This document shows, piece after piece, positions 14,076 to 38,024 of a DNA stretch of 46,498 nucleotides. Both the position numbers and the translations under genes were made by a program. The notes below the pieces were generated by a model. It was not told the DNA's origin, did not search any database, and worked only from the letters and a program-made list of their open reading frames with translations. The stretch comes from Candidatus Fermentibacterota bacterium. GTDB taxonomy: Bacteria; Fermentibacterota; Fermentibacteria; Fermentibacterales; JCC-6. The first letter of the stretch is position 1. Each line of letters begins with the position of its first letter. The DNA lies in contig JAUVIR010000022.1 in the NCBI GenBank assembly GCA_030592645.1, positions 1-46,498 on the forward strand. Direction: 5' to 3'.

Positions 14076-15206
14076 CTATTCAGGGAGTTCCATTATCCAT
14101 ATCTTATGGAAGAAGTCCGGATTCAGCGAATAGGCTATCATTCCATGCTCGTCGATTATGAAATCCCACCATTGCGCATCATCACCTGTACCTTCAACTT
14201 CAGCTGTGAACAAGAGTTCGCCATCCATATCGTAAACGTCGAATACAGGTATAAGCTCCGTTCCGCGTCTTACCCATATTCTGTTCTGAGAATCGTATCC
14301 GATATCAGTGATCAAGAATCGGTATGGGTTCGGGTCGTAATTGATTATCACTCCCCCGGCACCGATGTTGGTCAGCCAGGCTTCCATCCACCGCTTCTCC
14401 TCGGCTATATCCTCTTCGGATTTTGCTACTCTATCCATTTCACGCTGGAATTCCAGTATTGAATTTCCATCCCGGTCGAACACCTGGACAATGTAGTCTT
14501 CAGTCGACATCGGTGTCAGGTATACATTTCCCTCACGGTCGGCTGTGTACTCAGCACTGAAGAGAGTTTTGTTAAGGAGTTCAGTTAAGTTTTCGGGATC
14601 GAAGGGGAACTCATCTCTGTAATAAAAGGCTGTAGGCTCGTTATCCTCCTCGTACCTTCCGATGGCGAAAACGGTTGTTGGCGGTCCTTCAAAATCAATG
14701 GTGAGTTTCAGTGCTACGAAGGCATTTGAATCAGCACCTGACATTCTCATAGGCGGGTTGTTGTTGAATTCCGCTGAAACACCTTCCCATTGCCCCTCGG
14801 GAGAAAAACTATTTACTCCGCCCTGCATGGGATCACAGACCGCAACTCTTCCGTCGCCCAGCACAGCCATCGCCAGAGGCATCAACAGCTCTCCCGGGCC
14901 GCTGCCCTGGTTTGCTATTCTTCTTATGAACTCACCGGTGGGGGAGTATACAAGTACCGAGTATGCTCCCTGGTCCAGAACATAAATGTTCCCATCCGGT
15001 CCGTATTCTACAGCTACGATATTGGCGAATACGTAATCACTGTCACCAATTTCAAGGCCAATCGAATCAACAATGGCGATGGAAACCCTCTCCTCGGTTT
15101 CCGCAGGAGTGACCTGCGAGATATCGGAGCCGCGCTCTCCGCATGCAGAGAGCATTACTCCAGCCAGAACGATGCAGAATGCGGCCAGTATTGTTCTTTT
15201 CATCAT
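14076..15206 (-). CDS. Beta-propeller (NHL/6-bladed) lipoprotein
   Basis: A 376-residue predicted lipoprotein with lipobox LSAC (Cys22). Blade-like motifs repeat through the chain: GPDGNIYVLDQGAYSVLVYSP, LGDGRVAVCDP, DREGNVYLTP, DSQNRIWVRRGTE. These are typical of 6-bladed beta-propeller outer-membrane or periplasmic proteins of unknown ligand. It is a paralogue of the protein at 35959-37083: both share the sequence GNGPGEL/GSGPGELLMP, the same order of blades, and an ending of WVRRGT...F D-V/I-x-D/N. AAAGGA lies before the double ATG. It stands alone. Confidence 0.8.
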   Translation of the reverse strand: MMKRTILAAFCIVLAGVMLSACGERGSDISQVTPAETEERVSIAIVDSIGLEIGDSDYVFANIVAVEYGPDGNIYVLDQGAYSVLVYSPTGEFIRRIANQGSGPGELLMPLAMAVLGDGRVAVCDPMQGGVNSFSPEGQWEGVSAEFNNNPPMRMSGADSNAFVALKLTIDFEGPPTTVFAIGRYEEDNEPTAFYYRDEFPFDPENLTELLNKTLFSAEYTADREGNVYLTPMSTEDYIVQVFDRDGNSILEFQREMDRVAKSEEDIAEEKRWMEAWLTNIGAGGVIINYDPNPYRFLITDIGYDSQNRIWVRRGTELIPVFDVYDMDGELLFTAEVEGTGDDAQWWDFIIDEHGMIAYSLNPDFFHKIWIMELPE

Positions 15207-35115: not shown

Positions 35116-35216
35116 CTTCACATTTTCCAATTGTTGTCATGCTTGACCATCTAATCCCAACGTATCATTGTGTCCTTATCAATAAGTAATGCAGTCTTGA
35201 AAAGAAAGGGATGATT

Positions 35217-35891
35217 ATGAATCCAGTAACTCCGATAATTGCAGTTCTGGCAATCGCCGGCATTATTATATGGATAGCGATAATGACGGGCAGGAAACGG
35301 ACAGCCGCCTGGGAGGGGGTCGCCCAGAGGCTTGGCGCCACGTTCACTCCTAAAGGATCTAACGTATTTGCGACCTTTCCATTCCAGCTTTTCAACGCAG
35401 GGTCGAGCAGGAAAATGAAGAATCACCTTCAGTGGGAATCCGAAGGTGTTACCATTCATCTGGGCGATTATCAGTATACCATACATAGCTATACCGGCAG
35501 GAACAGGACATCAAAGACATTCAGACAAACCATCTGCATTCTGGAAAAGGAAGGACTGGATCTTCCCAGGACGTACCTGAGAAGGCAGATGGCACTGCTG
35601 GATTGGGTTGGAAATAAATTTGGTGCTCAGGACATTAACTTCGAAGAGGATCCGGAGTTTTCAAAAGCTTTCGTTCTCAAGGGTGATGAAGCACGTACAC
35701 CGCAGATCGTGGGGCCTGAACTCAGACAGCATCTGCTTCAAAGCAGGAAAGCCTTCAAGACAATTGAAATGAACGGTAACGCTCTTATGATGAATTTCGG
35801 AAAGAGAAGAAAACCGGAAGAATATTCTGATCTGGTGGCTTGGGTCATGCCTGTCTACTACATGGCGGACAACAAGGGCAGCGCCTGGTAA
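35217..35891 (+). CDS. Single-pass membrane protein, function unknown
   Basis: A protein of about 224 residues with one N-terminal membrane helix (PIIAVLAIAGIIIWIAIM), followed by a soluble domain on the cytoplasmic side (the flanking GRKR suggests inside). The region WEGVAQRLGATFTPKGSNVFATFPFQLFNAGSSRK is similar in style to small membrane proteins described only as hypothetical (DUF3137-like in pattern: weak). GAAAGGG lies seven bases before ATG 35217; the ATG at 35211 directly abuts that site. It ends just ahead of the first palindromic repeat. Confidence 0.65.
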   Translation: MNPVTPIIAVLAIAGIIIWIAIMTGRKRTAAWEGVAQRLGATFTPKGSNVFATFPFQLFNAGSSRKMKNHLQWESEGVTIHLGDYQYTIHSYTGRNRTSKTFRQTICILEKEGLDLPRTYLRRQMALLDWVGNKFGAQDINFEEDPEFSKAFVLKGDEARTPQIVGPELRQHLLQSRKAFKTIEMNGNALMMNFGKRRKPEEYSDLVAWVMPVYYMADNKGSAW

Positions 35892-35897
35892 TTAATC

Positions 35898-35954
35898 AGG
35901 GACGGAGCAGAGGGACGGAGGTAATAAGATTTCTTAATTACCTCCGTCCCTCTG
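35898..35954. repeat. Palindromic repeat copy 1 (REP/MITE-like)
   Basis: CAGAGGGACGGAGGTAAT and its exact complement form an 18-bp stem around AAGATTTCTTA. The left side extends with AGGGACGGAGC, which has no matching right side. A 45-base core (35910-35954) is identical to copy 2 at 37118-37162. It lies between two convergent genes and could also act as a bidirectional terminator. Confidence 0.85.
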
Positions 35955-35958
35955 ACAT

Positions 35959-37083
35959 TTACTCCAGTAAGTACAGTACCTGATATCCCTCTTCCGGATC
36001 TTCCTCCCATGCAAGAATACCTTCCTGCGAGACGCTTGTTTTCCAGCTCCAGCCATCCTGCGGGAAGACTACATGTTGAAGGAGTTCTCCCGATGTATTG
36101 AAGATGTCAAAGAAGGGTATATCCATGGTGCCGCGTCTTACCCAGAGATTACCATCCGGCCCTATATCCACTCCTATAACCATATCCTTAAACGGGTCAG
36201 GTTCGAATTCCATAGAACCCCCTCCTCCTACTCCGCCCATTCTGCTTATGTAGTTGGTTACATAGGTGCTTTCAGCAGCCATTTCTTCTGCGGACTTCTC
36301 TACTGGAATCAGGTCCATTGAAATACTGAGAACTTCCTCTCCCTCGGAATTCCATCCTGTTACTCGATACTCTTGAGCATCCTTGAGCGAGAAATAGATC
36401 ATATCCGAATTGTTTCCGCCTATGCTCAGAGGATCAAGAAGATCGATAAAGAATATGGATGGATTTTCAACAATATCATTCATGCTCATTTCAATTGAAT
36501 CCTGCCACAGGATCAGGTCCCATTCTTCCTTTCCATATGAGTAAAGCGCTACACGGCGGTTTATTAGTATTTTCTCGTCCACCATATCGAAATCAACTTT
36601 GTAAGCTGCAAACTGATTGTCTGAAACCGGAGTTCCCTGGAATGGAGGCTGCTGTGGCCAAAGGCCGACTTCCTCCATGAATTGAAGTGAATCATCAAAC
36701 ACTACGAATCCCTGTTTTCCCAGGTCAAGAATCATGAGCTTTTCATCGGACATCAGAAACATTTCCCAGGGCATGACCAGTTCACCCGGGCCGTTGCCCT
36801 GCCTTGATAACTGCCGAAGATAATTCCCGCTGCTGTCGTAGATTTTTACGCAGAGAGCAACCTGATCCAGAACCATAATCCTGCCGTACTGGTCAATAAC
36901 AGCGCTTATTATGGAACCGAAAGTATTCGTTGAGTCCCCCAGCTCAACTCCAATTTCAAGCACTGCTTCAAGGGTATCCACAGGAAGCACTGGAATGTCC
37001 TGAACGGCTGCTGGCTCGTGTTCGTTCCCACCGCATCCGATGATCAGCAAAAGAGAACTGAGTACAGTTAACAGATATTTCAT
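35959..37083 (-). CDS. Beta-propeller lipoprotein, paralogue of the protein at 14076
   Basis: A 374-residue predicted lipoprotein (lipobox LLIIGC, Cys17). Blade motifs: DQYGRIMVLDQVALCVKIYDSSGNYLRQL, GNGPGELVMPWEMFLMSDEKLMILDLG, GPDGNLWVRRGTMDIPFFDI. It shares the arrangement and several exact words with the lipoprotein at 14076-15206 (VLDQ, GPGEL, WVRRGT), so the two come from one duplication. The gene sits between two copies of a palindromic repeat and stops four bases from copy 1, which suggests that the segment may have been moved or that the repeats target such flanks. AAGGGG lies before ATG 37083. Confidence 0.8.
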   Translation of the reverse strand: MKYLLTVLSSLLLIIGCGGNEHEPAAVQDIPVLPVDTLEAVLEIGVELGDSTNTFGSIISAVIDQYGRIMVLDQVALCVKIYDSSGNYLRQLSRQGNGPGELVMPWEMFLMSDEKLMILDLGKQGFVVFDDSLQFMEEVGLWPQQPPFQGTPVSDNQFAAYKVDFDMVDEKILINRRVALYSYGKEEWDLILWQDSIEMSMNDIVENPSIFFIDLLDPLSIGGNNSDMIYFSLKDAQEYRVTGWNSEGEEVLSISMDLIPVEKSAEEMAAESTYVTNYISRMGGVGGGGSMEFEPDPFKDMVIGVDIGPDGNLWVRRGTMDIPFFDIFNTSGELLQHVVFPQDGWSWKTSVSQEGILAWEEDPEEGYQVLYLLE

Positions 37084-37117
37084 ACAACCCCTTAAGTATA
37101 GTATAAATATAATATAC

Positions 37118-37172
37118 GAGGGACGGAGGTAATAAGATTTCTTAATTACCTCCGTCCCTCTGCTCCGTCCCT
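37118..37172. repeat. Palindromic repeat copy 2 (REP/MITE-like)
   Basis: The 45-base core is identical and in the same orientation as copy 1, but the extra outer arm (CTCCGTCCCT) is on the right instead of the left. A complete ancestral unit would have 28-base arms; each copy has lost one outer end. Positions 37146-37172 encode the last eight residues and stop codon of the EamA transporter. Confidence 0.85.
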
Positions 37173-38024
37173 ATTTCCCCTGCTCCTGTAATTTATCCAG
37201 CCGCCAACTAGTATCAATCCGGCGCCGATGAAAACTGCTGTATCGGGCACAGAATCGAAGAACAATATCTGGAATGACATTGCAAACACTACACTGAGAT
37301 AACTGTATATGGCTACTTCTCCGCCTGGGGCATAGCGGTAAGCCTTCGTCATGAGTAATTGTCCCGCAGTTCCCGATAAACCTATGCACAGAAGGAATAC
37401 AAGCGATTTGATATCGGGCACGACTCCTTCAAGTATTACCGAAGGGAGAAAGAACAGTGTGATGGCAGCCGAGAACCAGAAAACGACAAGCAGCGGTCTG
37501 TCGGTCTTCCGGAGGGCTCTTAAAGTAGTGTAGGCGCTTCCCGCGAACAGAGCTGAAAGGACGGCGAGTCCGGCTGGGAGAGTAAGTGGAATTGAAGCCG
37601 GTCTGAGAATTACAATCACTCCTGTGAACCCAAGGAATACGGCCAGTATCTGGATTTTCTTCAATCGTTCACCCAGGAAGAGCCATGAAAGTATAAGTAC
37701 GAAGAAAGGGCTGAGCCTGTTTATCGTCACTGCCTCCGCAAGAGGCATTCCCTCTACTGCCAGAAAAAAGGTGAGCATTCCCGCCATTCCGAACAGTGAT
37801 CTTGCACCCAGAAGAACCGGATTGCCAGGTTTGAAGGAGATACCTTTCGCTCGAAGTACAACCCCCAGAACAATTGTCGCAATAAGCCCCCTTGCGAAAA
37901 GCTTCTGTGTTGTGAGGATCCCGGAATCCGACGGGATAAGCTTTACAATCAGAGATACTATTGAAAGGAAGAAAGCACCCAGGATCATGTACAACGCCGC
38001 TTTTCTCCCGGGAGTATCAAACAC
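37146..38024 (-). CDS. EamA/DMT-superfamily transporter
   Basis: A 292-residue inner-membrane transporter with ten hydrophobic helices in two EamA halves. The drug/metabolite family's motifs appear as ALYMILGAFFLSIVSLIVKL at the start and AVFLGFTGVIVILRPA midway. Members export amino acids, nucleotides or other metabolites; the substrate cannot be inferred. The final eight residues (RDGAEGRR) and the stop codon come from the palindromic repeat, so the native C-terminus has been replaced. It starts 12 bases after the stop of the DUF362 gene, so the two probably form one transcript. Confidence 0.87.
   Translation of the reverse strand: MFDTPGRKAALYMILGAFFLSIVSLIVKLIPSDSGILTTQKLFARGLIATIVLGVVLRAKGISFKPGNPVLLGARSLFGMAGMLTFFLAVEGMPLAEAVTINRLSPFFVLILSWLFLGERLKKIQILAVFLGFTGVIVILRPASIPLTLPAGLAVLSALFAGSAYTTLRALRKTDRPLLVVFWFSAAITLFFLPSVILEGVVPDIKSLVFLLCIGLSGTAGQLLMTKAYRYAPGGEVAIYSYLSVVFAMSFQILFFDSVPDTAVFIGAGLILVGGWINYRSRGNRDGAEGRR

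Follow-up and report, generated by a model that had tools for sequence, protein, structure and literature searches.

Why should a lipoprotein gene of a Candidatus Fermentibacterota bacterium stand between two identical palindromes? The question is raised by the window, the whole 46,498-nt stretch of DNA analysed here, which is contig C25 of the 2.58-Mb draft genome G000. Sequence comparison within the window confirmed the basic layout described in an earlier, sequence-only reading: a 45-base core is found at 35910-35954 (copy 1) and again at 37118-37162 (copy 2), identical and in the same orientation at both ends of the gene, and an extra outer arm lies on the outer side of each copy, AGGGACGGAGCA to the left of copy 1 (35898..35909) and CTCCGTCCCT, inverted relative to it, to the right of copy 2 (37163..37172). 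The resulting arms, 35898-35925 and 37145-37172, are 28 nt each and 100% reverse-complementary. In copy 1, 35908-35925 and 35937-35954 pair as a perfect 18-nt hairpin with 11 nt between them, and single-stranded DNA folding gives the two copies energies of -21.3 kcal/mol (z -8.66) and -18.6 kcal/mol (z -7.28), each against 200 shuffles. On a uniform-base estimate, ~1e-18 exact direct repeats of 45 bases would be expected by chance in the window.

The gene between the copies (35959..37083, minus strand) encodes a 6-bladed beta-propeller protein (PF17170/DUF5128, E 2.6e-10) whose N-terminus appears lipobox-like by eye. Copy 1 is located between the convergent 3' ends of this gene and of a conserved neighbour (35211..35891, plus strand), which ends 6 bases before the left outer arm and for which a Pfam search gave no family above the cut-off. 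Copy 2 is located between the 3' end of an EamA transporter gene (37146..38024, minus strand) and the start of the lipoprotein gene, and it reaches into the former: the EamA stop codon and last 8 residues (RDGAEGRR, window 37146-37172) fall inside copy 2 and its outer arm, this C-terminus being repeat-encoded. The propeller gene had initially been taken as duplicated; it does have a distant paralogue at 14115-15113 (minus strand, 25% identity, E 2e-32), its sole strong relative in the window, and a recent duplication is rejected. This lipoprotein family has 3 to 28 matches per genome in the 13 genus genomes searched.

The palindromes belong to a dispersed family. Counting copies in the genome and in its relatives, as had been proposed, revealed 24 complete elements in G000, 15 short (39 bp) and 9 long (~100 bp), with ends GGGACGGAGG...CCTCCGTCCC; the count started from exact matches to GGGACGGAGG and leaves out degenerate copies, while an additional match is an isolated motif within an ORF. 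The two window copies contain the 39-bp element at 35912-35950 and 37120-37158. The GGGACGGAGG motif occurs 27 times forward and 25 times in reverse, against 4 and 2 for the reversed control, and the repeat pattern is far above that control in G000 and in most, not all, of the genus; these genome-wide copies rule out a local chance repeat. According to a crude ORF caller that ignores RNA genes, 12 of the 24 complete copies lie at convergent junctions, 10 at tandem and 2 at divergent ones, and some extend into an ORF end, by 82 bases at most. Local pairs are in modest excess (3 within 1.5 kb among 27 positions in G000, the studied pair included, against 0.41 expected; Poisson p 0.008). A second local pair, on contig C15 (L118:1139-1238, 2274-2373), consists of near-identical long elements ~1.1 kb apart with one gene between them. 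Among the matches listed, the short form is found in named genomes of Ca. Aegiribacteria, Fermentibacteria and Sabulitectum, and also in Stenotrophomonas, Luteimonas, Lysobacter, Pseudoxanthomonas and one Elusimicrobia genome; a search of viral_contigs with the exact short pattern gave 0 matches. The arm GGGACGGAGGTAATTA recurs unchanged in Xanthomonadaceae and the Elusimicrobia genome (L153, L171, L191, L209, L213, L223, L226, L199), most of the xanthomonad copies with this arm having GC-richer loops. A literature search with the core letters returned nothing on bacterial repeats among the matches listed, and one for a Fermentibacteria transposase together with a repeat had no match.

A candidate for the enzyme that moves the family is encoded in the same genome. 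G000 has six Y1_Tnp genes, and the one on contig C31 carries a GGGACGGAGG end ~90 bp before its predicted start, the upstream end being the only one close to it. Its 237-aa product matches Pfam Y1_Tnp (E 2.4e-14) and has orthologues at 56-86% identity in ten relatives, nine of the genus and one of the family, that of G005 with one stop. With one mismatch allowed, at least one GGGACGGAGG-type end lies near all 11 clade transposase genes (at least 56% identity to the C31 protein); six of the 11 have such ends on both sides within 200 bp, and in three genomes (G013, G002, G015) a whole short palindrome stands on either side of the gene. Across the 19 genus genomes, repeats exceed the control in all ten with a C31-type transposase (weakly in G004, 38 vs 23), and six of the nine without it are at or near background (G006, G008, G009, G012, G017, G018), giving a Fisher p of 0.003 that is uncorrected for kinship. 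The remaining three (G010, G011, G014) have repeats above control and no transposase detected in drafts that are 61-73% complete; three of the six repeat-poor genomes are also incomplete (67-79%). Beyond the genus, homologues at 34-35% identity with GGGACGGAGG-type inverted ends are present in Lysobacter (L234), Stenotrophomonas (L233) and the Elusimicrobia genome (L241). Such ends were found at 4 of the 21 homologue loci in named genomes outside the genus (L232-L252), the fourth, L236, having them on one side only, and were missing at the other 17, including L235 and the closest homologue, L232 (48% identity). A REP/MITE family mobilised by a transposase, one of the two origins suggested by the sequence-only reading, is supported, as a family with a linked transposase, by the genome-wide copies, the Y1/HUH gene with the same ends and the co-occurrence in the genus; no transposition event was seen, the observations being of presence or absence from species to species.

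The protein carries HVH, Q99 and Y118...NP, conserved without exception in the 14 aligned homologues, and W98, found in 12 of them. The best fold match of its predicted structure (mean pLDDT 77) is 4ER8, a REP-associated transposase bound to a REP hairpin (E 3.9e-8), followed by IS608; at sequence level the match to 4ER8 is weak (E 0.012). Scores fell below the cut-offs of the NCBIfam models REP_Tyr_transpos (60.5 and 63.2 bits, cut-off 80) and IS200 (23.3 bits, cut-off 55), and the C-terminal part has no Pfam match. The search for a REP-associated tyrosine transposase, which had been recommended, thus gave a linked Y1/HUH gene whose product has a REP-associated transposase as best fold match, that falls below the REP_Tyr_transpos cut-off and whose repeats are without the GTAG tag. 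Could the repeats nevertheless be a canonical, GTAG-tagged REP/REPIN family with a standard RAYT? They are palindromic, intergenic and linked to a Y1 transposase with 4ER8 as best fold match, but by eye no GT[AG]G stands at the hairpin foot, directly at the palindrome, in the printed copies, and their ends are inverted repeats common to the transposase unit and the short forms. We rejected the canonical GTAG family on the absence of the tag, and consider it very unlikely.

Judged by the portions of the published descriptions used here, the named kind that comes closest is the TIRtron/TIRYT (PMC3733652), which belongs to the TnpA-Y1 superfamily (PMC6006769), and the family is a well-supported addition to a kind already known. 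As described by Di Nocera et al. 2013 (PMC3733652), a TIRtron has inverted repeats on both sides of a RAYT-related Y1/HUH transposase; in some genomes the TIRs also form a dispersed family, some of them self-complementary, as in S. maltophilia, some carry the motif GGGGWSAS, which is characteristic and not defining, and TIR binding and cleavage are left there as future work. The elements studied here agree and differ as follows: (i) as in TIRtrons, the transposase gene is flanked by inverted ends and the repeats are dispersed, in 24 complete copies; in contrast to GGGGWSAS, the end reads GGGGACGG, which agrees at 7/8 positions, or AGGGACGG, a comparison with the families of PMC3733652 made by text only. 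(ii) As in REPtrons, RAYT-REP systems and REPINs, a transposase gene lies between inverted palindromes and repeat abundance is tied to the cognate transposase (Nunvar 2010, PMC2817692; Bertels 2011, PMC3116915), and long palindromes arise, as described for REPs and REPINs, from deletion inside an inverted pair; unlike RAYT-REP as presented in those papers, our elements have no GTAG foot, have terminal inverted repeats, and number in the tens instead of over 100. (iii) NHVH, WQ, Y...NP and a length of ~240 aa fit TnpA-Y1 class 2, the nearest subclass by eye being 2.1 (or 2.7) (Quentin 2018, PMC6006769, which also treats 'double foot' REPs); the authors found no REP-like repeats adjoining subclass 2.1, whereas here repeats are present, and where 2.1 has a C-terminal HTH, Pfam gives no match. 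(iv) IS200/IS605 elements have a short TnpA, Y...Q and subterminal hairpins, in contrast to the 237 aa and Y...NP seen here. (v) As in MITEs, the repeats have TIRs, no coding capacity, and ends common to a transposase-bearing unit.

Did the repeats bring the propeller gene, or did they arrive around it? In G002, G007, G016, G014, G005, G010, G004 and G001 the lipoprotein gene has the same neighbours on both sides, and in G011 it is on a broken contig. At site 1, the position of copy 1, a short element is present in G000 and G002, a long one in G007, G005, G010, G004 and G001, and none in G014; at site 2, the element is short in G000, G002 and G016, a single end in G007 and G014, and absent from G005, G010, G004 and G001. 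Because the gene is syntenic in relatives without one or both of the repeats, it is older at the locus than the repeat pair. In G016, site 1 holds a 3.2-kb gene (L067:2601-5813; 1070 aa, GGDEF/AAA/TPR-like by eye) beside a degenerate palindrome, and at this position G011 shows a gap of about that length. The G010 draft contains the entire locus twice, in diverged form (C52 and C13), which represents either a duplication or a mixed bin.

In three other relatives (G013, G015, G003) the gene is gone and one short palindrome lies at the junction, which in G013 and G015 consists of the site-1 left flank, the palindrome and the site-2 right flank. In G003 the left breakpoint is inside the neighbour gene and not at site 1; therefore its loss was not a plain copy 1 by copy 2 event. 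No orthologue was found elsewhere in these three drafts (80-94% complete), the best matches having 32-34% identity, whereas a search of four holders gave 76-88%. On a tree of proteins from the same locus (890 columns, several weak forks), the absences require 3 changes, with losers spread among holders, and forcing G013, G015 and G003 into one clade costs 98 log units and is rejected (AU p 0.0014). By these comparisons the absence reads as later loss, and the repeat pair probably marks the place of that loss. A separate clade of four further genomes (G006, G009, G012, G017) has neither gene nor repeat at the locus, although a 51% relative occurs elsewhere in the G017 genome, and in G018 the locus is visible in part only. 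In Neisseria meningitidis, too, a surface-protein gene has been lost through recombination of the palindromic repeats around it, porA having been deleted between REP clusters (van der Ende 1999, known here from its title as cited in PMC3352162), although repeat family and host are different and the loss in our case is deduced from comparing species.

These observations bear on the second origin suggested at the outset, a composite mobile unit with the two palindromes as its ends and the propeller gene as its cargo. Identical direct copies at both ends of the gene, its absence with a single palindrome left in three relatives, and the transposase gene that itself lies between two whole short palindromes in three genomes would all suit such a unit. 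However, in G014, G005, G010, G004 and G001 the gene is in place although a whole element adjoins it on a single side or not at all, losers are scattered among holders, and the bracketed stretch does not recur among the G000 matches listed for a 3.3-kb DNA query. The composite unit is rejected on synteny and retains hardly any likelihood. The sequence-only reading had also asked whether relatives lack the gene at this locus, and had held that a mobile family would be contradicted by repeats confined to this place together with a gene standing there in repeat-free relatives: the gene does stand in such relatives, and is absent instead where one palindrome is left, but the repeats are not only here.

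The elements also change form. Seven further G000 sites were compared with stretches fetched from six relatives, and six of them were matched, the exception, C33_S, having no orthologous match in the regions fetched. The C27 and C33 sites are long in G000 and short in G002, and the C21 site is long in G000 and a 25-bp remnant in G002, all with flanks 91-95% identical; in other species the further sites hold single ends or no element. At the studied locus the two copies are identical within G000 and within G002, yet 3/39 bases differ between the genomes, which points to local gene conversion or re-insertion. As to the outer arms, the whole element with 28-base arms originally envisaged did not survive the comparison: most printed copies are without the outer arm, which is thus an addition to a basic element of 39 bp. 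The left arm is absent from the sister genome G002, and a 13-base outer unit occurs twice at site 1 in G013. Among 99 short copies, with orthologous copies in different species counted separately, 17 have a second element end within 30 bases in matching orientation, against 4 in the opposite one. The outer arms, that on the left included, are most plausibly leftovers of older ends, or else short tandem duplications, and not part of one element with 28-base arms. Palindromic flanks specific to each copy were seen in G000, G011, G013 and G015, as well as in a pooled set of 7 from other phyla; since G002 fails this test (2903/5000 shuffles reach the observed value), flank symmetry is no universal rule.

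Do the palindromes serve mainly as transcription terminators, selected at gene 3' ends and with little or no present mobility? Their distribution has something of this: 22 of the 24 complete G000 copies are at convergent or tandem junctions, and among the 99 short copies a stretch of 6 with 4 or more T follows in 42 cases, and one with 4 or more A precedes in 48. Of the same 99, 20 lie 3 nt past a tRNA-like ACCA end; of 14 such copies scanned, nine are exactly 3 nt from an ARAGORN tRNA and five have no tRNA, and one further copy is 6 nt from a tRNA. The G000 copies on C10 and C42 are behind tRNA-Leu matches, and short palindromes 3 nt behind tRNA genes were seen for several isoacceptors (Arg, Leu; L154, L177, L179, L182, L188, L196, L211, L220, L222, besides C10 and C42). 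Behind tRNA-Leu(cag), eight relatives have by eye an ordinary hairpin, replaced by the palindrome with a T-run in G000, G002 and G013 and by a minimal palindrome without T-run in G007 and G004; the palindrome there is likely used as a terminator. A literature search on REP, tRNA and terminator had no match. Against terminators as the main explanation, the window copies have no T-run and no terminator was called at them, presence and form at one site differ between close relatives, similar ends flank the transposase gene, and use as a terminator is compatible with mobility. A terminator role at the two window copies is not supported, and we regard the general proposal as unlikely. Rather more room, although still on the doubtful side, is left for the idea that the family targets hairpins, inserting into or replacing the apex of existing palindromes such as tRNA and gene terminators or its own older copies, an idea on which the copies past tRNA-like ends, the nested copies and the flank symmetry bear. 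If this were true, new copies would turn into working terminators, and local pairs at both ends of a gene would be a built-in switch for its loss.

Taken together, the repeats are very probably non-autonomous, REP-like, TIR-type MITEs with ends GGGACGGAGG...CCTCCGTCCC, likely mobilised by the C31 Y1/HUH transposase (TnpA-REP/TIRYT kind) and acquired on both sides of a propeller gene that was native there and was later lost in relatives. The transposase, also encoded in relatives, would move the elements as single-strand hairpins, by analogy with IS608 and TnpA-REP and in line with its homology and linkage. Elements would have been gained on both sides of the native gene, at gene 3' ends, the copies of one genome being kept identical by gene conversion or local re-insertion, and the junctions in two of the three losers suggest that the gene may have been removed by recombination or replication slippage between direct copies.

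The locus offers, in an uncultured group, a clear case in which small transposase-linked palindromes mark changes of gene content, one resident surface-protein gene being absent in three separate branches with a palindrome scar left behind. Two side observations are less common: palindromes that stand where tRNA terminators would be, and copies nested in older ones. Since the same core is present in Xanthomonadaceae, as well as in an Elusimicrobia genome, cultured hosts such as Stenotrophomonas and Lysobacter are at hand for studying TIR-type Y1 transposases.
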